Of a DNA stretch of 63,520 bases, positions 52,456 to 61,960 are shown one piece after another. Source of the stretch: Nitrospirota bacterium (GTDB lineage: Bacteria > Nitrospirota > Leptospirillia > Leptospirillales > Leptospirillaceae); the NCBI GenBank assembly GCA_021816465.1, contig JAKAYF010000002.1:1-63520 (forward strand), written 5' to 3'. The position numbers and the translations under genes were made by a program. Below the pieces are notes generated by a model, which was not told the DNA's origin, did not search any database, and saw only the letters and a list, made by a program, of their open reading frames with translations. Every line of letters starts with the position of its first letter. The first letter of the stretch is position 1.

Positions 52456-53000
52456 GGATCGATTTTATTGATCGACCAATACAGAGCAAATGCGGAAAGA
52501 GTCTTTCCGTCACGGATTGATCCATTCACAATGGACTTGGCAATCATAGAAAGTGGCAGAGAAACAATATCAAGGTCCTCATCCTCATCTGGCTGACTTT
52601 CTCCGAGAACACCTCCGGTCGAAAGGAAAAGATGGATCCGCTCATCGCAGAAGCCAGGAGTCGTCATGATCGTCCCCATCAATGAGAGCTCGCCTCCAAA
52701 AATGCCTGTTTCTTCCTTCAACTCCCGAATCGCCCCTTTCAGGGGATCCTCTCCATTTTCGAGCTTTCCGGCTGGCAATTCAAGGACGGTCTCGGAAACC
52801 GAAGGCCGAAACTGCCGGACAAAAAATACTTTGCCATCAATAATCGGCAGAATGGCAACTCCTTCTCCAAAACAAACTGACTCGTGGATCCATCCGGACT
52901 GGAGGGAACCGACTCTGGACAAAGAGACCGAGATCCTTTTTCCCGAAAATACAATGGAACGCTCATCTCCATCGGGGGGATTCATTTCAGCCTCCGTCAT
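52452..53000 (-). CDS. NUDIX hydrolase, ADP-ribose pyrophosphatase type
   Basis: 182-aa hydrolase. The Nudix box lies near residues 77-99 (GKLENGEDPLKGAIRELKEE, then TG). The preceding FVRQFRPSV-VLELPAG stretch is typical of ADP-ribose pyrophosphatases. It would clear ADP-ribose or related nucleotides. It is joined to DUF420 and ferredoxin genes by ATGA overlaps. Confidence 0.88.
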   Translation of the reverse strand: MTEAEMNPPDGDERSIVFSGKRISVSLSRVGSLQSGWIHESVCFGEGVAILPIIDGKVFFVRQFRPSVSETVLELPAGKLENGEDPLKGAIRELKEETGIFGGELSLMGTIMTTPGFCDERIHLFLSTGGVLGESQPDEDEDLDIVSLPLSMIAKSIVNGSIRDGKTLSAFALYWSINKIDP

Positions 53001-53611
53001 GAAGGTGTTCCCATTCTCTTTCGCTTCTCTCTTCCGACATACCAGAAGAGAATAACAAGAGAGAGAATCAGGAAAGAACCAATTCCGGAAAGGGCCCCGA
53101 TCGAAGACTTGATCCCGTAGGAAGGATTCCTCGCCGGATTATAAATGACAAAAAGCATCGTATAGACCGAATAGGCTGTCACAATGGAACAGATAAAACA
53201 GATGAGCGTTACCCACCCCAGTCGTTGATGCACTTTAGGGTTCTTCACCAGAACCCGTTCACCATCTTTGAAGTCGGTTGAAACAAACCCGTTAAAAACG
53301 ACGACACCTGTCAAAACCAGCGCTGCGGTAGAAACAAGAGAATGAAAGATAATCACGGGATAATAGATCAGAAACTTGACAAAATCCGGACCACCGAATC
53401 CTACGATTCCGACGATGTACTGTTGCGCGATATACATCAGGAACCAGGCAGCAACCAGTACGGAAGACAGAAGCATTGTATTGTGATGGCGAGTTCCTTT
53501 GTGTTTCCTGCCAAAATATCCACCAACCGCAAGAAAGCTGAATACGATCGTTTCGCTTGTTACAGTCAGATCCCACCAGAAATCGGCCTTCGTTCCCAAA
53601 AAGCCATGCAT
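52997..53611 (-). CDS. DUF420 membrane protein
   Basis: 204-aa membrane protein with five or six helices and several conserved histidines (RKHKGTRHHN, KVHQRLGW, IIFHSLVS). DUF420/CtaM proteins are associated with terminal oxidase assembly in Bacillus-like bacteria, and here the gene is close to the cbb3-like cluster, which supports a role in respiration. It follows the 95-aa membrane protein after 35 bp. Confidence 0.78.
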   Translation of the reverse strand: MHGFLGTKADFWWDLTVTSETIVFSFLAVGGYFGRKHKGTRHHNTMLLSSVLVAAWFLMYIAQQYIVGIVGFGGPDFVKFLIYYPVIIFHSLVSTAALVLTGVVVFNGFVSTDFKDGERVLVKNPKVHQRLGWVTLICFICSIVTAYSVYTMLFVIYNPARNPSYGIKSSIGALSGIGSFLILSLVILFWYVGREKRKRMGTPS

Positions 53612-53646: not shown

Positions 53647-53934
53647 TCACGAAACAGGGTCACCACTTTCCAGTGCCCGACATACAAGATACCAAATAGA
53701 AAATGGGACGACAAAAGCAAATATCCCGACCATTCCGAAGAGCAGGGAAAATCCCATGAATGCATCCATTGGACTTTTCCCAACCAGCTTGAAGAATGAA
53801 AACAGAAAATGCCCACCAAGAAGGTTGGGAACCATAAAAGTATACCCAAATCCCCAAAATGAAAAGATCGCAGTGAGAAAAGGATGACGTTTGGCTAAAA
53901 CAGGAAGTGAAATTGAGTCCGTGGGCGGGGCCAA
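53647..53934 (-). CDS. Small membrane protein of unknown function
   Basis: 95 aa with two helices (about residues 20-45 and 60-85) and no cysteines in a known motif (one late Cys in YLVCRAL). It starts at TTG 53934, six bases after GGGAG, and is 12 bp after the preceding gene. Its neighbours (DUF420 and the oxidase cluster) suggest a respiratory role, but no family is recognised. Confidence 0.55.
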   Translation of the reverse strand: MAPPTDSISLPVLAKRHPFLTAIFSFWGFGYTFMVPNLLGGHFLFSFFKLVGKSPMDAFMGFSLLFGMVGIFAFVVPFSIWYLVCRALESGDPVS

Positions 53935-53946
53935 GGGTTGCTCCCT

Positions 53947-54414
53947 TTATGGCTTTGGCTTGTCCATGTCACGAATGCGGGCAAACTCTGAGAGGAGGTA
54001 GGAAAAGTCTTCCTTTTTCAAAGAGTTCCGCCTGATCGCAGCCTGAATTCGCCGTTTGTCAACGGTTTGCCCCCACACCCCCAACAATGTCCGGCCTCCC
54101 TGGAAGTTGAGCTTTTTGACGATCTCGTCAGCATCTCCATTTTTCCATGTCAGTATGACGGACCGATTCCCGATCCTGATTGATTTGAGGGAATGAGGAA
54201 AAAGCAGCAGGCACTGTGAACCGACAGAAGTAAAACCCGAAAAGAGAGCAAGCCATAATGAAAAGAAAAATAAATAAAATAGCGGAGAAGTATGGCTTTT
54301 TTCATAATAATCGTAACTGAGAACTGAAGACATGAAAATGGCGGCGCCATGGAACAAACCGCTCCATAAAGCACCCTTTTTATCTGGAATCAATTCTATA
54401 ATCTTCTCTGACAT
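53947..54414 (-). CDS. Membrane protein of unknown function at the head of the trp supraoperon
   Basis: 155 aa. Two helices (about residues 17-34 and 45-72) are followed by a soluble C-terminal domain with SIRIGNRSVILTWKNGDADE. No family is recognised. A promoter with good spacing lies directly upstream, so this gene may be the first of the long transcript to lptD. The ATG would be close to the 5' end of the mRNA. Confidence 0.6.
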   Translation of the reverse strand: MSEKIIELIPDKKGALWSGLFHGAAIFMSSVLSYDYYEKSHTSPLFYLFFFSLWLALFSGFTSVGSQCLLLFPHSLKSIRIGNRSVILTWKNGDADEIVKKLNFQGGRTLLGVWGQTVDKRRIQAAIRRNSLKKEDFSYLLSEFARIRDMDKPKP

Positions 54415-54828: not shown

Positions 54829-56172
54829 TCACAATCCTTGAGTTATATAGACAGATGCCTCCTGGGAAAGCTCCTGTTTTTTAGAGTTCAAAGAAGTTAC
54901 ATGAATCACGAAAGGATGCAATCCCTCCGAAAGGTTGCCTTCTTTGGGAAGGATTGAAAAAGGAATTATTTTTTTTCCTCCGGCAGGAATAGTCACTTCA
55001 CCGGCTCCCATCCGGACACTTCCTGAAGGAAGCCCATCCTGCTGAATCAAAAAACTTTGCGGAACCGGCTTTTTATTAGAAATAGCAAGAGAGTAGCTCG
55101 TCAATTGGCCAGGGTTCTGACTAAAGGTTATATGGAACGGAATGTAAGAAAAAATCCCATAAATGAAAAGTGTCAGGGGAATCATTGTAAAACCGGCCGT
55201 CAAGGCAAAGCGGTTCAGTGCCGGGGAAACCTTGTTGATATGTTTTTTTCCATCCTTGCCTATCGAAAAACCGTCAAAATGGAATGTCAATAATGATGGG
55301 ACATTTTTTTTCCCTGAGTAATCTTCACAGGCAACAACACATTCACCACAATTAATACAACGGGTGTAGTTCTTCGTATCTCGTGGATCAATATCAACGA
55401 TGCAGGACTTGACGCAAAGGTTACATCCGGTACATTCCTCCCGTCGCGCATCATCAAAGGCAACTTTCATTGTTGCTTCGCTTTTGAACATGTGCTGCCA
55501 GAGAGGATACGGACAAACCCAATTGCACCAGTAATGACGTATCAGAAAGAGATCAAGGATAAACAATGCCCCGATCCCTGGAATAATAAAGAAGACTCCA
55601 TGAGTATTCGAGGCTGTCCTGATATCGTTCCAAAGGACCTTTGGAGCGACAAAATATCCCGCAAAGACAACACCGAGAGCGATCGACATCAGAACAATAA
55701 TGGTGCCGAAAAGGACCCATCCCACAGGGGTCGCCTTTGAGCTTTTGCTCAAATCCGCACCTATTGTCAGGGAGTCAAGACCGAGACTTTGCTTTTTCGA
55801 TTTCAGTATCTTGATGACGAGATAGTCGACAAACTCTGACAATGTATTCTGAATACAGGCCCACCCGCAGAAAACCATTCCGAGCATGGAATAAACTGTT
55901 GCAGCTCCCGCGATCAGGAGAAGCCAGAAAGGAAAAATAAGGAAAAAGTCGCTCCACCAGATCTGATAACCAGCCAACAAAAAACGCCCTGTGGAAAGAT
56001 CTATCCGGAACAAACCCGTAAAGGGCAATATCGCGATAGTGGCAAGAATCGTACCCTGAACAAGATATCTGACAGTTGTAACGCGCCAGAACTTTTTTGC
56101 ACCGGACTTGGACGGATTTTTATTGATGCTGGGCATTGGAATAAGTGAAGCATTTTTTACAGAGGATGACAT
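54829..56172 (-). CDS. ccoG: CcoG-like cbb3 oxidase accessory protein
   Basis: 447-aa membrane protein with about five helices and a 2[4Fe-4S] domain; CcoG proteins reduce copper for insertion into cbb3 oxidase. Motifs: FCGWACIQN after helix 2-3, YWCNWVCPYPLW, CTGCNLCVKSC and CINCGECVVACED. A C-terminal immunoglobulin-like periplasmic domain ends the chain, as in FixG. ATG at 56172 has AAGG six bases ahead; a TTG at 56190 is less likely. It closes the respiratory cluster. Confidence 0.85.
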   Translation of the reverse strand: MSSSVKNASLIPMPSINKNPSKSGAKKFWRVTTVRYLVQGTILATIAILPFTGLFRIDLSTGRFLLAGYQIWWSDFFLIFPFWLLLIAGAATVYSMLGMVFCGWACIQNTLSEFVDYLVIKILKSKKQSLGLDSLTIGADLSKSSKATPVGWVLFGTIIVLMSIALGVVFAGYFVAPKVLWNDIRTASNTHGVFFIIPGIGALFILDLFLIRHYWCNWVCPYPLWQHMFKSEATMKVAFDDARREECTGCNLCVKSCIVDIDPRDTKNYTRCINCGECVVACEDYSGKKNVPSLLTFHFDGFSIGKDGKKHINKVSPALNRFALTAGFTMIPLTLFIYGIFSYIPFHITFSQNPGQLTSYSLAISNKKPVPQSFLIQQDGLPSGSVRMGAGEVTIPAGGKKIIPFSILPKEGNLSEGLHPFVIHVTSLNSKKQELSQEASVYITQGL

Positions 56173-56218
56173 AGCCAACCTTTCCGACAAGGAGAATCAG
56201 GGGAATTTTGCAGAGAGA

Positions 56219-56473
56219 CTATTCTTCGCCCTGATCATCACCCTGTTTACCGCTGGATTCAATCTCATGACGCCAGTACCATGAAACTCCCAGATATAGA
56301 AAAAGCGGCGCCAGAACTCCTAGTAAAAAGACAAGATAGGCAATCCAGGGAACACCCAGTGTTACATGCACATACCTTGGCATATAGGCATCTGACCGGA
56401 CCGGGAAAAACAGGCCGGTCCAAATGGACAAAAACAGTATCCACAGGAACAAGAACTGCCCTTTTCGGCTCAA
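56219..56473 (-). CDS. Small membrane protein in the oxidase cluster
   Basis: 84 aa with two helices (about residues 7-24 and 42-63) and a very acidic C-terminus. The start overlaps the stop of the CcoN-like gene before it (ATGA). No family is recognised. Its place suggests a small oxidase subunit or assembly factor. Confidence 0.6.
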   Translation of the reverse strand: MSRKGQFLFLWILFLSIWTGLFFPVRSDAYMPRYVHVTLGVPWIAYLVFLLGVLAPLFLYLGVSWYWRHEIESSGKQGDDQGEE

Positions 56474-57045
56474 ACCGATTCTCCTGCCCTGACAGCCACC
56501 CGACCGCTTATCATGGCATCCTCTTCCGATGGAAGCTTCTTGCGCCCCTTTGCGACTTGAACAGAGTTGTAAATATTGTAAGCAAAGATAAAGTTTGCAA
56601 GAAGGACCATCATTCCGAAGATACCGACCAGTTCCATGTAAGGGACTTCCACTGGTTTGATATCAGCAACATTACCGTGAAGGAGGATCATTCCCCCCTT
56701 GTAACCCGCAATACTAAAACAGAGAACCATTCCCACCAGCCCGATGTTATGGGTCCAGAAATGGATCTTCATAAGCTTGTAACTATAGAGGGGAGAGTTG
56801 TAAAGCCTTGGAACCACATAGTAAATCGTTCCAAAGATCGCCATCTCCACCCATCCAAGGAGGTTAATATGAGTGTGCCCAAGAACGATCAGGTCAGAAG
56901 GACCTCCTGCGCCAGCCTGTACAAAGTTCCTGAACTGTTCGACTCCACCCATGATCGACCCCCAGGAAAAACCGATAATCGCGTATAAAAGACATGCATA
57001 ATAGAACTTCATGATGTAGTCCTTGATACCTTCTTCCCGATCCAT
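56470..57045 (-). CDS. Short CcoN-like membrane protein (copy 2)
   Basis: 191 aa with five helices. Residues near 50-85 read GHTHINLLGWVEMAIFGTIYYVVPR, which resembles the second helix of CcoN with its heme-ligand histidine, followed by HFWTHNIGLVGM and near the end LLANFIFAYNIY. A typical CcoN has 12 helices and six metal-ligand histidines; the later helices and the copper-site motif are missing. It is a paralogue of the protein at 58182-58730. The start ATG at 57045 follows AAGGAG. Confidence 0.75.
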   Translation of the reverse strand: MDREEGIKDYIMKFYYACLLYAIIGFSWGSIMGGVEQFRNFVQAGAGGPSDLIVLGHTHINLLGWVEMAIFGTIYYVVPRLYNSPLYSYKLMKIHFWTHNIGLVGMVLCFSIAGYKGGMILLHGNVADIKPVEVPYMELVGIFGMMVLLANFIFAYNIYNSVQVAKGRKKLPSEEDAMISGRVAVRAGESV

Positions 57046-57058
57046 AATCTCTCCTTCT

Positions 57059-58177
57059 TCAATCATGAATGACATCGCGACATGTACGGAAACCAAAAAA
57101 ATCTGACGCATAGTCTGGCCAGGTGGGATTTCTCGCTGTCGTTCTGGCACTATACTGGTCGCTTTTCCAGGAGCCTCCGCGCAACACCTTGTAAACCTTG
57201 CCCCTGACCCGGTGCAAGGTTCCCGTTGCATCGACCTTATATGCCATAAATCTTGCCTTGTTGGCGGTACTTCCCGGATAGGGCCTATATGTCGATGAGG
57301 TCCATTCGAACACATTTCCAGCCATGTCGTAAATACCGTATGGACTGACTCCGTTGGCATACCTTGTAACGGATGTGGTATCTCCGACGGTATAATTTGC
57401 GTTCGCCCGACGGGGATCCCATGTATTCCCCCATGGCCATAGCCTTCCATCTACACCGCGAGCTGCCTTTTCCCACTCTTCTTCCGTGCAGAGCCGGCTT
57501 TTCTGCCATCTAGCAAAGTCTGACGCATTAAGATAGCTCACAAAGGTTACGGGATGGTCCCCCTTCCCTTTGGGGTAGGTTCTCCCTTTCCAGCCCGGGG
57601 GAGCCAGGTAATGGGCCTGGTCAATAAATTCCTTGTACTCGCGATTGGTCACCAATGTTTTCATAATGGCATAAGGAGGCAAATACACCTTGTGGACAGG
57701 TTTTTCATCAAAGTTGGAGAAGGCATCGTCCGACCCCATGATGAAAGGTCCAGCAGGAATATAGACAAATCCGGGAGGCAAACTGACACCTTTTGGTGCA
57801 GGCACTGCAAGGCTTGGAGTTGCCGGCATTTCATTTGCTGCCTTGGAAATGGGCAAAGATGCCGAAAGGTGGGGAACAACGCCTCCCATTGGCCTGAAAT
57901 TACCCGGTGTTGCACCATGGGTACGGATGCTTGACTCAGAAAGCCGCTTGATTCGGTTCGAGGCCAAACTCACGATCTGGATTGCCCCCGCAATCAGGAT
58001 CAGAATCACGACAGTAACAGATATGGCCTTCCACGGCAGTCTCCAAGGGGAGAGTTCCTGCAAGGTCAGATCATCGTCATCCATTGTTGTGATTGAAGGG
58101 CCTGGAGCCTTCTTTTCCTGACTTTCCGATCCCGACGGGACGACTTGATCAAGGGATTCATCTTGTTTACCCGTCAT
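57059..58177 (-). CDS. Membrane-anchored SUMF1-domain protein
   Basis: 372 aa. A cytoplasmic N-terminus of about 48 residues, one helix (about 50-70), a proline-rich linker, then an FGE-sulfatase/SUMF1 domain (about 130-370): GPFIMGSDD, RLCTEEEWEKAARG, MAGNVFEWT, RGGSW and FFGFRTC. The catalytic cysteines of formylglycine-generating enzyme between RGGSW and GFR are absent, so that reaction is not expected. It lies between two CcoN-like genes and is 4-13 bp from each, so it is probably a component of this system. Confidence 0.85.
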   Translation of the reverse strand: MTGKQDESLDQVVPSGSESQEKKAPGPSITTMDDDDLTLQELSPWRLPWKAISVTVVILILIAGAIQIVSLASNRIKRLSESSIRTHGATPGNFRPMGGVVPHLSASLPISKAANEMPATPSLAVPAPKGVSLPPGFVYIPAGPFIMGSDDAFSNFDEKPVHKVYLPPYAIMKTLVTNREYKEFIDQAHYLAPPGWKGRTYPKGKGDHPVTFVSYLNASDFARWQKSRLCTEEEWEKAARGVDGRLWPWGNTWDPRRANANYTVGDTTSVTRYANGVSPYGIYDMAGNVFEWTSSTYRPYPGSTANKARFMAYKVDATGTLHRVRGKVYKVLRGGSWKSDQYSARTTARNPTWPDYASDFFGFRTCRDVIHD

Positions 58178-58181
58178 CTTC

Positions 58182-58730
58182 TCAAGCCCTTTCTTTCACA
58201 GGAACGACGTCAGGAACAACGGAAGCAGATTCCTTCGCAAAATAGGTCCAGAAAATGTTGGCGACAAAGGTCCAGTGAGCCAACCCCATAAGCAGCGCTG
58301 AAAAGACGAATCCAATCCTGTGAATCGGCTCATAATGGGCACGAGCCAAGGGGTAGACAATCCCTTCATCGATCATCCGATTTCCCTCGAGAATCCCGAA
58401 AACAAGAAGTGTCACATAAAACAAGAGGACACCGGAAACCATAAAATAGAAATTGGCCTGGCCAAGGAAAGCACTTTTGATATTCCTTTTCATCATTCGG
58501 GGGATCAGATAGTAGACCACCGCCATCATGACTGAAACAACTCCGCCAATCAGGTTGATATGAGCATGCGCCAGCGGATCGACAAGATGCCCGGCCTGTC
58601 CGGTGGTATGAACCCAATGTCTAAGTCTGGGCGTTGACTGAAGGAATCCTTGCAGCGTCCCTATGAAAAGGCAGAAAACACCAAAAAGGATAAATTTAAG
58701 TCCTAACCGATCGCTTTCTTCGATTTTCAT
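58182..58730 (-). CDS. Short CcoN-like membrane protein (copy 1)
   Basis: 182 aa with five helices: the motif LAHAHINLIGGVVSVMMAVVYYLIPR and a late FVANIFWTYF match the copy at 56470-57045. Further histidines lie in RHWVHTTGQAGH and AHYEPIHRIG. Like the other copy it resembles only the first part of CcoN or related heme-copper oxidase subunits. It might bind a b heme, but it lacks the copper and catalytic-tyrosine regions. It overlaps the gene before it (ATGA). Confidence 0.75.
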   Translation of the reverse strand: MKIEESDRLGLKFILFGVFCLFIGTLQGFLQSTPRLRHWVHTTGQAGHLVDPLAHAHINLIGGVVSVMMAVVYYLIPRMMKRNIKSAFLGQANFYFMVSGVLLFYVTLLVFGILEGNRMIDEGIVYPLARAHYEPIHRIGFVFSALLMGLAHWTFVANIFWTYFAKESASVVPDVVPVKERA

Positions 58731-59197
58731 AGCGGAGTACTCCCTTCATTTCGCCCATTTTCAAACGTCTGGGTGTTTGATTTTTGTTTCAGACGCAGCC
58801 TTTTAATCTTGTCCTGCCGTTTGCGGAGATACTCGCCTGCCCAACCTCCCACAAATGATACTTCCGGAACAGTAATAAAAAAAATCATCATAAAGGGAGC
58901 GGTCGGCAGACCGACCGTATGAAAGCTTCCGGATCGGGAAGCATTCATGTAGGCCCAGAGAATATACGCCATCGGCGGAACTGCCCCCCAGTACTTTCCC
59001 CACTTTCCGACAATGAATCCAACATAAAAAGCAACCAATGCCGGCACAAGAAGGTATGTCCAGAGAATTCCACCTCCGAACAGGTGATGGAAGGCACCAT
59101 CGGTCAGGTGAAATACTGAATCTATGATCCAATAACCAAGCACTCCCAGAATCATTGCAAGAACCACCCGGGGAATATAATTTTTCTCGAGATTCAT
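58727..59197 (-). CDS. Four-helix membrane protein in the oxidase cluster
   Basis: 156 aa with four predicted helices and a strongly basic C-terminus (KRQDKIKRLRLKQK). Helix 2 includes DGAFHHLFGGG. No family is recognised. It is 20 bp after the ccoS-like gene and overlaps the CcoN-like copy 1. Confidence 0.6.
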   Translation of the reverse strand: MNLEKNYIPRVVLAMILGVLGYWIIDSVFHLTDGAFHHLFGGGILWTYLLVPALVAFYVGFIVGKWGKYWGAVPPMAYILWAYMNASRSGSFHTVGLPTAPFMMIFFITVPEVSFVGGWAGEYLRKRQDKIKRLRLKQKSNTQTFENGRNEGSTPL

Positions 59198-59217
59198 CTG
59201 GACAGACCTCCCCCAAC

Positions 59218-59424
59218 CTACTTACGGTCTTCTAGTTCCTTTTCCTTCATTGCCTCAATATGATTCTTTCGATCATCATCATCCTCCATAAAAACCAGAT
59301 ATTTGATATTTTCGTCAAACTGGTTGTTCTTATAGGCCCAGTAGATACCGATTACGACCAGTACAAGGGATACCAGTCCTGTCGCTGTCCAAAGATAGGC
59401 AACAATTCCTTCTGGTAATTTCAT
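59218..59424 (-). CDS. ccoS: CcoS-like cbb3 oxidase maturation protein
   Basis: 68 aa with one helix followed by NNQFDENIKYLVFMEDDDD. CcoS/FixS proteins have the same layout, with a GQFDD box and an acidic tail after a single helix, and are needed to assemble cbb3 oxidase. The match is by pattern. Confidence 0.6.
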   Translation of the reverse strand: MKLPEGIVAYLWTATGLVSLVLVVIGIYWAYKNNQFDENIKYLVFMEDDDDRKNHIEAMKEKELEDRK

Positions 59425-59441
59425 CGTTAACCCTTTCTCAT

Positions 59442-59873
59442 TTATTTTGGCGGTTTAGGATAGTTGGGAGAGCCTGGAAGCGATTGGGTTGATGTCAACA
59501 AATCCAGAAGCATCGCCTTGTCAGCTGGAGGAATATCAGAAAAATCCGTTGCAAATTTTCCATCGTGTCTGGTATTGAAAAAGACTTTGTGCGGGTCTTT
59601 CATATAAGCTTCCAGCCACTGGCGCGTTCTTTTGGTTCCTTCTCCATCAAGATCCGGACCTGCAAAATCTCCATCTCCGTAGAGAACATGACAGTTCTTG
59701 CAGCCATCTCTTTTGAAAACATGAAAGCCTGCTTCTGTTTTTTTGTTAAATACATACACATCATTCGTCGTCCAGAAGTTAATGATATGCATCTGGCCCA
59801 ATACATACAAAATCATTACAACCCCAATCATCAGGGCCGTAAGCATAAACACAACCTTTTCCCCAGTCTTCAT
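59442..59873 (-). CDS. Monoheme cytochrome c, CcoP-like
   Basis: 143 aa with one N-terminal helix (about residues 8-27) and a single heme site CKNCH near residue 58, followed by GPDLDGEG and a C-terminal helix. This corresponds to the heme part of CcoP (usually diheme), here as a separate small protein. The predicted sixth ligand is not clear. Confidence 0.78.
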   Translation of the reverse strand: MKTGEKVVFMLTALMIGVVMILYVLGQMHIINFWTTNDVYVFNKKTEAGFHVFKRDGCKNCHVLYGDGDFAGPDLDGEGTKRTRQWLEAYMKDPHKVFFNTRHDGKFATDFSDIPPADKAMLLDLLTSTQSLPGSPNYPKPPK

Positions 59874-59886
59874 TGCCAGAACCTCA

Positions 59887-60093
59887 TCAAACCAGAATTT
59901 TCAAGACGAGCTGAACCACCGCAAACAACAGAACGACGGTCACTCCGATAATACTGAGGACGACAACAACCTGCTCTCCTTTTTTCAACTTTCCAAAAGG
60001 GCCAATGATATAACGGGACATGATGAGAAAGACAAAAACAGCAGCAATCAGGAAGGTAAAGATAACGATAGAAACAGACAGTTTGATATTCAT
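59887..60093 (-). CDS. Small two-helix membrane protein
   Basis: 68 aa with two hydrophobic helices (about residues 5-26 and 41-65) separated by GPFGKLKKGE. No family is recognised. It is the first gene after the internal promoter, with a ribosome site GAGGG, and precedes the CcoP-like cytochrome by 13 bp. Confidence 0.6.
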   Translation of the reverse strand: MNIKLSVSIVIFTFLIAAVFVFLIMSRYIIGPFGKLKKGEQVVVVLSIIGVTVVLLFAVVQLVLKILV

Positions 60094-60113
60094 ACAGGAC
60101 CCTCTTACCTGTT

Positions 60114-60143
60114 ATTTTACGGCCCCTCGCATTCCCGGGTCAA
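60114..60143 (-). promoter_or_regulatory. Internal promoter of the oxidase cluster
   Basis: Minus strand: TTGACC (60143-60138), 18 bases, TAAAAT (60119-60114). The -35 box begins next to the U-run of the upstream terminator. It would drive the 68-aa gene and everything down to ccoG. Confidence 0.55.
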
Positions 60144-60149
60144 CAAAAA

Positions 60150-60172
60150 GGGCGGTCGCAAGCGAACCGCCC
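60150..60172 (-). terminator. Intrinsic terminator inside the oxidase cluster
   Basis: On the minus strand GGGCGGTTCGC and GCGACCGCCC pair, with one bulge and a tiny loop, and TTTTTGTT follows. It is a strong terminator 70 bp after the 34-aa gene. Confidence 0.8.
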
Positions 60173-60192
60173 TGGTCCAATATGCCGGAAAT

Positions 60193-60228
60193 GAGAAAGG
60201 CCGGATGGGAAATAATCCGGCCTTTCTC
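60193..60228 (-). terminator. Second hairpin of a tandem terminator
   Basis: GAGAAAGGCCGGAT and ATCCGGCCTTTCTC are perfect 14-bp inverted repeats around an 8-base loop. The 3' arm itself is T-rich. It lies between the 34-aa gene and the terminator at 60150. Confidence 0.6.
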
Positions 60229-60241
60229 CTGCGACTAAAAA

Positions 60242-60346
60242 CTACTCTGGCCGTCTCTCGTCGATAAAGAAAGAATAGATCAGAGAACAAGCCAACATCA
60301 TCATCGTTATAACCCAAAAAACGTAAGGACTATTTAAGTTCCACAT
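60242..60346 (-). CDS. 34-aa single-pass membrane peptide in the oxidase cluster
   Basis: Short gene that encodes MWNLNSPYVFWVITMMML and a further hydrophobic part, ending FFIDERRPE. One helix spans about residues 8-27, with the charged end after it. GGGAGGG precedes the ATG at good spacing. It lies 54 bp after the CcoP-N-like gene. Small single-helix subunits such as CcoQ or CcoH are known in cbb3 oxidases, but the sequence is not recognisably similar. Confidence 0.6.
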   Translation of the reverse strand: MWNLNSPYVFWVITMMMLACSLIYSFFIDERRPE

Positions 60347-60400
60347 ATGACCCTCCCAGGAGAGTTTTCTCCAGAAATCTCTTGCAATCGATACTCAAAA

Positions 60401-60733
60401 TTAAAAGTCTTTTGAAACCTCTGTTTTTTTCAACAAAAGGCCCATCCAGACATAGAAAAAACAAACATAGGTTGAGTTGATGATATAACCCTGATCCCAC
60501 CATGGGCGCGCCAAGGTTTTCGACAAATGTGCCTTCAGGACGGGAGCTCCCATAATGAGCCAGTGATGGGGATGGCCTGGATACTGGGGCCTTGCTCCAA
60601 AAAGCGGGAAGGTCAGCAACTCAGCCGTAACAACAGTCATTGTCAAAATGAGAATCAACGCTGCAGGGATGTTATTCGTCCCTTCAAGAATTCCGTCATA
60701 CCTTTCGTTCAACATCTCGTCAATATCAGCCAT
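60401..60733 (-). CDS. CcoP N-terminal-domain-like membrane protein, no heme site
   Basis: 110 aa. The start region NERYDGILEGTNNIP resembles the YDGIxE-N-P stretch at the N-terminus of CcoP, followed by a helix and LFGARPQYPG, where CcoP also has a short helix-exit segment. A histidine group PGHPHHW and a second helix (about 85-105) follow. There is no CxxCH. It may represent a split-off membrane domain of CcoP. Confidence 0.55.
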   Translation of the reverse strand: MADIDEMLNERYDGILEGTNNIPAALILILTMTVVTAELLTFPLFGARPQYPGHPHHWLIMGAPVLKAHLSKTLARPWWDQGYIINSTYVCFFYVWMGLLLKKTEVSKDF

Positions 60734-60789
60734 TTTATAACTCCTTACAAGTATAATTGCAGTGAAACATCTCCGTCAATTGAAGACGT

Positions 60790-61320
60790 CTATTTCAAGC
60801 TTGCCATGTAATCGGCCAGAGCGTCAAGATCCTTTTTCCGGAGATAGTTAAAAGCCGGCATCATGGACTTGGGCTGAACAGCTCTTGGATTGGCATGATG
60901 GACAAGATGCCATCCCTTGATCGGCAAACGGCTTCCCACATGGAGAAGGTCAGGAGCCTTACGATCGGAGCCGAACACTGTCGGGCTCTCACCCACAAAG
61001 TCAGCTGCTGTCGGAGGAGCTCCAAAATACTGCCAGTCCTGGGTCTGCTCAGGTAGCAGCGTATGGCACCACCAGCAACCTTCGCGAATAAAAACAACCT
61101 TTCCTTTTCCGATCATAGTTGGCCGATTGTCACCGGTCATCATAGGATCTTCAAGCGTCCATCCGCTCTCAGAGCCGTAGTCCTTTGATTTCTGGACTGC
61201 CGTGGCTGTCGGAGGGATTTTCGCCATCTGGAGGGATGGGAACAAAACAACGATCGAGAGAACGATTACAAAAAGCGTCCCGATCATCATGGTACCAAAT
61301 TTATACTCACGATAAGCCAT
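60790..61320 (-). CDS. CcoO-like monoheme cytochrome c
   Basis: 176 aa with one N-terminal helix and one heme site CWWCH near residue 83, in the CcoO form REGCWWCHT. The C-terminal PKSMMPAF stretch carries the likely methionine ligand. In cbb3 oxidase, CcoO transfers electrons into the catalytic subunit. GAGGAG precedes the ATG. It is shorter than usual CcoO (about 200-240 aa). Confidence 0.82.
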   Translation of the reverse strand: MAYREYKFGTMMIGTLFVIVLSIVVLFPSLQMAKIPPTATAVQKSKDYGSESGWTLEDPMMTGDNRPTMIGKGKVVFIREGCWWCHTLLPEQTQDWQYFGAPPTAADFVGESPTVFGSDRKAPDLLHVGSRLPIKGWHLVHHANPRAVQPKSMMPAFNYLRKKDLDALADYMASLK

Positions 61321-61424
61321 TCACCACTCCTCACTTGAGGTTGAGGGTTCTACACCCAACCTGACTTGTCCAACAATCGGTTCAAGAGCCAGGGACAAGA
61401 TTCCCGGCAGACCTCTCAAGGAAA

Positions 61425-61625
61425 CTATTTTTTCCCTTTTGTAGGGTCAAACTTAGGCTTTGCGCCAATTCCGGTCATGCACTGGATCATAAGGAGCAAG
61501 CTGGTCAGAGCTGTGGCCGTTCCCATCAATGCCGCAAAAGCAGAAACACTGGCGTTACCGCCTGGGGTAGCACCACAGCAGTTGGAAGAATCAGATAATT
61601 GTGCCAGCGTAGAAAGAAGATTCAT
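61425..61625 (-). CDS. Small hydrophobic protein with a Cys-Cys pair
   Basis: 66 aa. A short start with SNCCGATPGGNASV leads to one helix (about residues 28-50), with another Cys in MIQCMTG. AAGGAG precedes the ATG at 61625 and decides against the longer frame. No family is recognised. It is part of the promoter-proximal oxidase cluster. Confidence 0.55.
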   Translation of the reverse strand: MNLLSTLAQLSDSSNCCGATPGGNASVSAFAALMGTATALTSLLLMIQCMTGIGAKPKFDPTKGKK

Positions 61626-61726
61626 CGCTTTCTCCTTTACAATGTTCAAACATTCTTTAAGTTCAACGAGAGGTCAGCTGAAAAGAAGGCTTCATTGAAA
61701 CGGAAGCTCAGCCTTTCAGAGTCCAA

Positions 61727-61960
61727 TCACCAGTTTTCTTCCTTGCGATGAAGTGAGCGCGCCCACAAAGAAACTGCCATTCCAGTTATTGCGGAGATGA
61801 CCATCACTTCGTAAACCCACTCATAATCTCCGCGCCATGTCGGAAACCGGTGCGCACCCAACCACTCCTGCAAACAAAACCCAACGACGCATCCGCTGCC
61901 CACGGCCACAAATGCACCAACCAAGGCATACGCCACAAAACCCTTCATGCTGTTTCCCAT
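61727..61960 (-). CDS. Small two-helix membrane protein, first gene of the oxidase cluster
   Basis: 77 aa with two helices (about residues 8-29 and 50-68); two cysteines (SGCVVGFC) lie in or next to helix 1. GGAGGG precedes the ATG. It is the first gene after the strong promoter at 62108. No family is recognised. Confidence 0.6.
   Translation of the reverse strand: MGNSMKGFVAYALVGAFVAVGSGCVVGFCLQEWLGAHRFPTWRGDYEWVYEVMVISAITGMAVSLWARSLHRKEENW

Follow-up and report, generated by a model that had tools for sequence, protein, structure and literature searches.

Gene content of the cluster

The DNA analysed here (the window) is a stretch of 63,520 nucleotides on contig JAKAYF010000002.1 of a Nitrospirota genome (GCA_021816465.1; 1.98 Mb in 104 contigs, completeness 80.5%), whose host is a chemolithotrophic bacterium of the Leptospirillum family. 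Its reverse strand, on which all genes listed in this section are located, carries a cluster that appears to encode the greater part of a divergent cbb3-type cytochrome c oxidase, including two short CcoN-like proteins, N1 and N2, which we consider candidate haem-b-binding subunits of that enzyme. N1 (182 residues; 58182..58730) and N2 (191 residues; 56470..57045) are single-arc proteins with four predicted transmembrane (TM) helices; both match the COX1 family of Pfam and carry a conserved HxH motif, formed in N2 by H57 and H59 within HxHINLLGWVEMAIF.

The inventory given in a preliminary description of this DNA (CcoO-, CcoP-N-, CcoS- and CcoG-like proteins, a CcoP-like monohaem protein, a 34-residue peptide and small membrane proteins) was confirmed. 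In the direction of transcription, the genes encode a small two-TM protein (a_77; 61727..61960), whose homologue lies immediately 5' of full ccoN in related clusters, a small one-TM protein with a CC motif that is found in the Leptospirillum family only (b_66; 61425..61625), and a CcoO-like membrane-anchored monohaem cytochrome c of 176 residues (60790..61320; Pfam FixO, 3e-20), with a single CxxCH in 38/38 homologues. The next gene encodes a 110-residue counterpart of the N-terminal anchor of CcoP (Pn; 60401..60733), which has no haem domain; its FixP_N match (5e-4) lies under the cut-off and CxxCH occurs in 0/41 homologues, haem c being carried by separate monohaem proteins. A single-TM peptide of 34 residues at the CcoQ position (60242..60346) is kept in the Leptospirillum family, and a small two-TM protein (m_68; 59887..60093) is kept across phyla. 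They precede a membrane-anchored monohaem cytochrome c (59442..59873) that would stand in for the haem domains of CcoP, and a small CcoS-like protein (59218..59424; FixS, 0.004, under the cut-off) that is present in all related clusters. Upstream of N1 is a protein with 3-4 TM helices (x_156; 58727..59197), which gave no COX1 match and is found 5' of N1 or of the FGE-like gene in relatives.

Between N1 and N2 lies a gene that the preliminary description had missed, for a membrane-anchored protein (57059..58177) resembling SUMF1, the formylglycine-generating enzyme (FGE) (Pfam FGE-sulfatase, 2.6e-50). Most of its members carry an RGGSWKSD motif, and the two active-site cysteines of FGE, judged against what we take to be the reference motif for that pair, are absent. 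N2 is followed by a small two-TM protein that is kept beside FGE across phyla (y_84; 56219..56473) and by a CcoG-like membrane ferredoxin with its cysteine motifs present (54829..56190), the homologues of which in related clusters match at <=1e-60.

Relationship of N1 and N2 to CcoN

Against COX1 (PF00115; curated cut-off 34.8 bits), N1 reaches 53 bits and N2 55, so that the search suggested in the preliminary description places both above threshold; we regard this sequence likeness as not due to chance. The matches cover COX1 positions of about 308-412 of 436, or residues of about 300-460 of CcoN, and each protein corresponds to a single arc of four helices whose homologues in CcoN are its last four, IX-XII, and not its first helices, as had been thought. 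Profiles of N1 and N2 match the solved cbb3 CcoN (3mk7) at 8e-12 and 6e-22, respectively, and their HxH motifs align on H345 and H347 in helix X of P. stutzeri CcoN, which are the axial ligands of haem b3 (first histidine) and haem b (second). When compared to the three arcs of Arenicellales CcoN in order, the N1 profile gave 22, 19 and 55 bits and the N2 profile 32, 19 and 78 bits; the weaker matches to arcs 1 and 2 are expected, because subunit I has an internal repeat. Neither protein has the 12 TM helices in three arcs of a haem-copper subunit I, and the CuB histidine ligands and cross-linked tyrosine are missing, the arc that bears them not being present. Against the CcoN family of NCBIfam (TIGR00780), N1 and N2 score 36 and 64 bits, far under the cut-off of 583, and no NCBIfam family was found for either.

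The preliminary description had proposed that the proteins of the cluster be predicted as a complex; predictions were run on single chains, and both N1 and N2 superpose on cbb3 CcoN, in support of their similarity to subunit I. The models have four long TM helices each, with a predicted local distance difference test (pLDDT) score of 87 for N1 and 92 for N2, and retrieve CcoN chains as their top structural matches, with TMq of 0.72-0.74. For the N2 model, the leading PDB entries are without exception cbb3 CcoN (E = 1.4e-4; 1.7 A across 166 columns with 9g6b).

Conservation and selection

Among 56 N1 sequences, D51, H55, H57 and E115 are invariant and H48 is almost so; in alignments of N2, both histidines of HxH are invariant or nearly so in all sequences aligned, and the HINLLGWVEMAIF stretch and HFWxHN are near-invariant. 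As an additional observation, N1 of Nitrospirota family f2 (loci L026 and L028) has an additional N-terminal soluble stretch of ~65 residues (IPLASLDLPHGFSDRELK...). When the window is compared to a complete genome of the same genus (G002), the changed fraction of synonymous sites is 66% in N1 and 71% in N2, and that of non-synonymous sites 1.2% and 4.2%, respectively. The resulting pN/pS values of about 0.02 (N1) and 0.06 (N2) indicate that both genes are under strong purifying selection. The earlier picture of a fragmented, undecayed cbb3 system with a pair of CcoN-like paralogues stands; the lack of decay is upheld by this selection, and not by the two strong promoters that had been invoked, since promoter-like sites are at shuffle level (10 versus 9.1 +/- 3.4 in shuffled sequences).

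An origin of N1 and N2 from a decayed or frameshifted ccoN was ruled out: both are arc-3-like and lie on two sides of another gene, both are conserved in Nitrospirota, Zetaproteobacteria and Gammaproteobacteria, and their pN/pS is low. In a quick tree, N1 and N2 form two separate clades that group with arc 3 (SH-aLRT 87), and the arc-3 sequences of the two CcoN types make up a clade that excludes them (89), a tentative placement given the long branches. Simple truncation of this system's own ccoN is unsupported by this tree, which is weak evidence for the same reason.

A full-length CcoN outside the window

The preliminary description had found no full CcoN. This is true of the window and of the incomplete genome it comes from, where N1 and N2 are the only COX1 matches, and not of the system. 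In the complete genome of the same genus, a third COX1 match corresponds to a CcoN of 474 residues encoded ~100 kb away, beside tatA-like and globin-like genes; its alignment to 3mk7 spans the full length (3e-62), and full ccoN genes are found in other relatives as well. Among 16 CcoN of relatives aligned to 3mk7, H64, H205, Y249, H255, H256, H343 and H345 are invariant. When the window's own genome was searched with the ccoN locus of its relative, a contig (C8) was found to begin ~260 bp past the expected ccoN stop, and we thus attribute the missing gene to an assembly gap. In this family, ccoN has genuinely been relocated away from ccoO and ccoP.

Distribution and gene order in relatives

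With N1 as the query, 229 loci were recovered from 84,980 species genomes, and the best 80 of these belong to Nitrospirota, Zetaproteobacteria (including M. ferrooxydans PV-1) and Gammaproteobacteria, the last represented by Arenicellales, Chromatiales, Thiotrichaceae and a biocathode lineage. In Arenicellales the order is N1-a-ccoN-ccoO-Pn-m-c-S-c (c, cytochrome c; S, CcoS-like), with N1 co-directional, and no FGE, CcoG or N2 was detected near N1 within the stretch read. N1 is also co-directional and beside a, ccoN, ccoO, Pn, m, c and S in other Gammaproteobacteria. M. erugo, PV-1, EBB-1 and several Gammaproteobacteria have c-N2-z-(a)-ccoN-ccoO-Pn-m-S-c-x-FGE-y-...-CcoG, with N1 nearby in most, so that in these two classes the genes from N2 through CcoG to N1 make up a single region, and dihaem and monohaem cytochromes adjoin N2 in relatives. 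In one Nitrospirota family (f2), ccoN-O-Pn forms one locus and S-c-x-N1-FGE-N2-CcoG another. By gene content, the window's cluster is the same set as in these relatives, minus ccoN. The earlier suggestion that N1 and N2 are accessory to a CcoN encoded elsewhere is supported by these arrangements, with ccoN at a distance in the complete genome of the genus and inside the cluster in Zetaproteobacteria and Gammaproteobacteria; a partnership of a full-length ccoN with these subunits is indicated by gene order.

Co-occurrence was assessed in 78 genomes of the class of PV-1 (Zetaproteobacteria), in which two CcoN types are separated by score (>450 versus <300 bits). Among the 41 genomes with the CcoN type described here, N1 was found in 37, N2 in 38 and at least one of them in 40, while 7 of the 37 genomes lacking this type have N1 or N2; five of those seven gave no CcoN match at all, which is consistent with incomplete assemblies. 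The association has a Fisher p of 8e-14, a value that overstates independence as the genomes are related, and 20 of the 22 genomes with the other CcoN type lack both N1 and N2. A further sample of 321 Pseudomonadota yielded no CcoN of this type and no N2, and only one N1-like protein, a distant relative.

Some neighbouring genes vary between lineages. In the window, z_155 (53947..54414, reverse strand) is weakly homologous (1e-4 to 2e-9) to a small protein adjoining N2 in Zetaproteobacteria and Gammaproteobacteria, and two more membrane proteins 3' of CcoG (52997-53611 and 53647-53934) are kept in the genus and nearest genera and were not detected in the other lineages compared. Several zeta- and gammaproteobacterial clusters (loci L153, L154 and L158-L161) encode between y and CcoG a protein of ~870 residues, spermidine-synthase-like by eye, which is not in the window's cluster. 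A distant N1-like protein with only one of the two histidines (DPLALGH; locus L227, 6213-6749, reverse strand) lies by an 824-residue protein that looks like the one of ~870 residues, with no CcoN nearby. A soluble cysteine-bearing protein of ~170 residues is encoded 3' of N1 in clusters of the same two classes (L154, 5123-5638; L121, 8498-8995).

Possible roles of N1 and N2

We propose, with confidence that is about evenly balanced, that N1 and N2 are haem-b-binding accessory subunits of a divergent cbb3-type oxidase, the larger part of which is encoded by the cluster. In cbb3 oxidases, electrons pass from periplasmic carriers to O2 at the haem b3-CuB site, and CcoN, CcoO and the monohaem cytochromes would accomplish this here. 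N1 and N2 would bind low-spin haem b where they contact each other or further oxidase subunits, and would supply the complex with a haem relay or a structural dock; the histidines of HxH, at i and i+2, would face opposite ways, so that each protein could present an axial ligand on two interfaces, like helix X of CcoN. On its own, neither can reduce O2, since the ligands of CuB and the cross-linked tyrosine sit on another arc. The presence of N1 with ccoN in Arenicellales, where FGE, CcoG and N2 were undetected nearby, favours a subunit over a maturation factor. Several points weigh against our proposal. The HxH motif could be kept for the fold or for haem in transit; N1 and N2 sit amid maturation genes (CcoG, CcoS, FGE-like) in the longer clusters; Foldseek support for the N1 model taken by itself is weak, the same CcoN family being retrieved at a best E of 0.005; and Arenicellales have N1 without N2, so that N1 and N2 cannot be an obligate haem pair throughout.

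A serious rival, which we hold to be possible and can endorse only tentatively, is that N1 and N2 serve in assembly and are not retained in the mature enzyme: they would hold haem b or mimic arc 3 during CcoN folding and haem and copper loading and then depart, acting with CcoG, CcoS and the FGE-like protein. Indeed, the Nitrospirota N1 and N2 genes flank the FGE-like gene beside CcoG and CcoS, the block N1-FGE-N2-CcoG is separate from the ccoNOP locus in f2 genomes, and the FGE-like protein lacks the cysteine pair, as in a possible non-catalytic helper. However, the Arenicellales N1 lies in the ccoNO operon away from any detected CcoG or FGE gene, standard cbb3 oxidases need no such proteins for their assembly, and most zetaproteobacterial genomes with the other CcoN type do without N1 and N2.

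We consider it unlikely that the single arcs oligomerise, with themselves or with each other, into a second haem-containing core of the haem-copper fold docked on the divergent oxidase; if true, N1 and N2 would be stand-alone arcs like the presumed ancestors of the three-arc subunit I, kept by lithotrophs as an extra haem relay. Somewhat more doubtful still is that they form a separate haem-b membrane protein, for instance a quinol-linked module or one for electron uptake in reverse electron transport, whose only tie to the oxidase is co-regulation. Their hosts are largely iron oxidisers or electrode-associated and need uphill electron transfer, and cytochromes lie beside N2, but Arenicellales keep N1 alone with ccoN, the distribution of N1 and N2 tracks this CcoN type and not the other, and we found no evidence for a quinone site, nor for the quinol- or NO-handling role suggested in the preliminary description. 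Finally, that N1, N2 and other small membrane proteins replace CcoN as a haem-copper-like core of separate arcs, an idea close to the haem-b dimer proposed earlier and encouraged by the match of both profiles to all three four-helix arcs of subunit I, is very improbable and was rejected, as almost all genomes that have N1 or N2 also encode a full CcoN of one type, usually adjoining, no third COX1-like arc with CuB ligands exists in the cluster, and both proteins resemble the same arc.

Aerobic iron oxidation terminates at such an oxidase. If the enzyme includes N1 and N2, pathway models in the literature that show CcoN, CcoO and CcoP alone would be incomplete, and gene surveys that name a short protein 'CcoN' would mislabel it. 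Stand-alone proteins of one-third of subunit I would also offer a direct test of how the three-arc haem-copper oxidase fold arose.

Comparison with known systems

N1 and N2 are two undescribed single-arc companion families of CcoN; no short or truncated CcoN-like proteins were found in the open-licence literature. They share with arc 3 of cbb3 CcoN (PF00115, TIGR00780; 3mk7, 9g6b) the fold of helices IX-XII, the HxH motif and YYxxP(R/K), and differ from it as stand-alone proteins of 170-190 residues without arcs 1 and 2. DUF2871 (PF11070) is, like N2, a short COX1-like membrane family, but the N2 match is weak (0.0012, under the cut-off) and does not amount to significant membership.

The cbb3 oxidases are divided into proximal and distal forms, reportedly after Ducluzeau 2008. 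Both forms are described in Zetaproteobacteria and neutrophilic iron oxidisers, the distal one likewise having a second, divergent CcoN type and a different subunit composition in Zetaproteobacteria, and the portions of these papers available to us do not mention short CcoN-like proteins (PMC7029218, PMC8788666, PMC10734462). The ccoNOP genes named for PV-1 (PMC3179512) are the locus that these papers list. The CcoN type described here may correspond to the distal form. Primers used to measure cbb3 expression in L. ferriphilum (PMC6695575) fall in this ccoO gene; they mismatch the window at 3-4 positions and, for the forward primer, relatives at 1-4, so a homologue of this ccoO was probably measured. 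A 'CcoN' (WP_036082816.1) that was reported to be up 4.9-fold (PMC9053815) may be full CcoN, N1 or N2.

A monohaem CcoO is encoded in the window, and a full CcoN with haem b, haem b3 and CuB histidine ligands and the helix VII tyrosine in relatives, all as in cbb3 oxidases; a CcoP with two haem c groups was not found, and the system is therefore termed a cbb3 variant. In common with the standard ccoNOQP operon of Pseudomonas and Rhodobacter it has CcoN, CcoO, a small Q-like peptide, CcoS and CcoG, whereas CcoP is represented here by an anchor without haem plus monohaem cytochromes from genes of their own, and a, m, x, y, z, the FGE-like protein, N1 and N2 are additional to the standard set.

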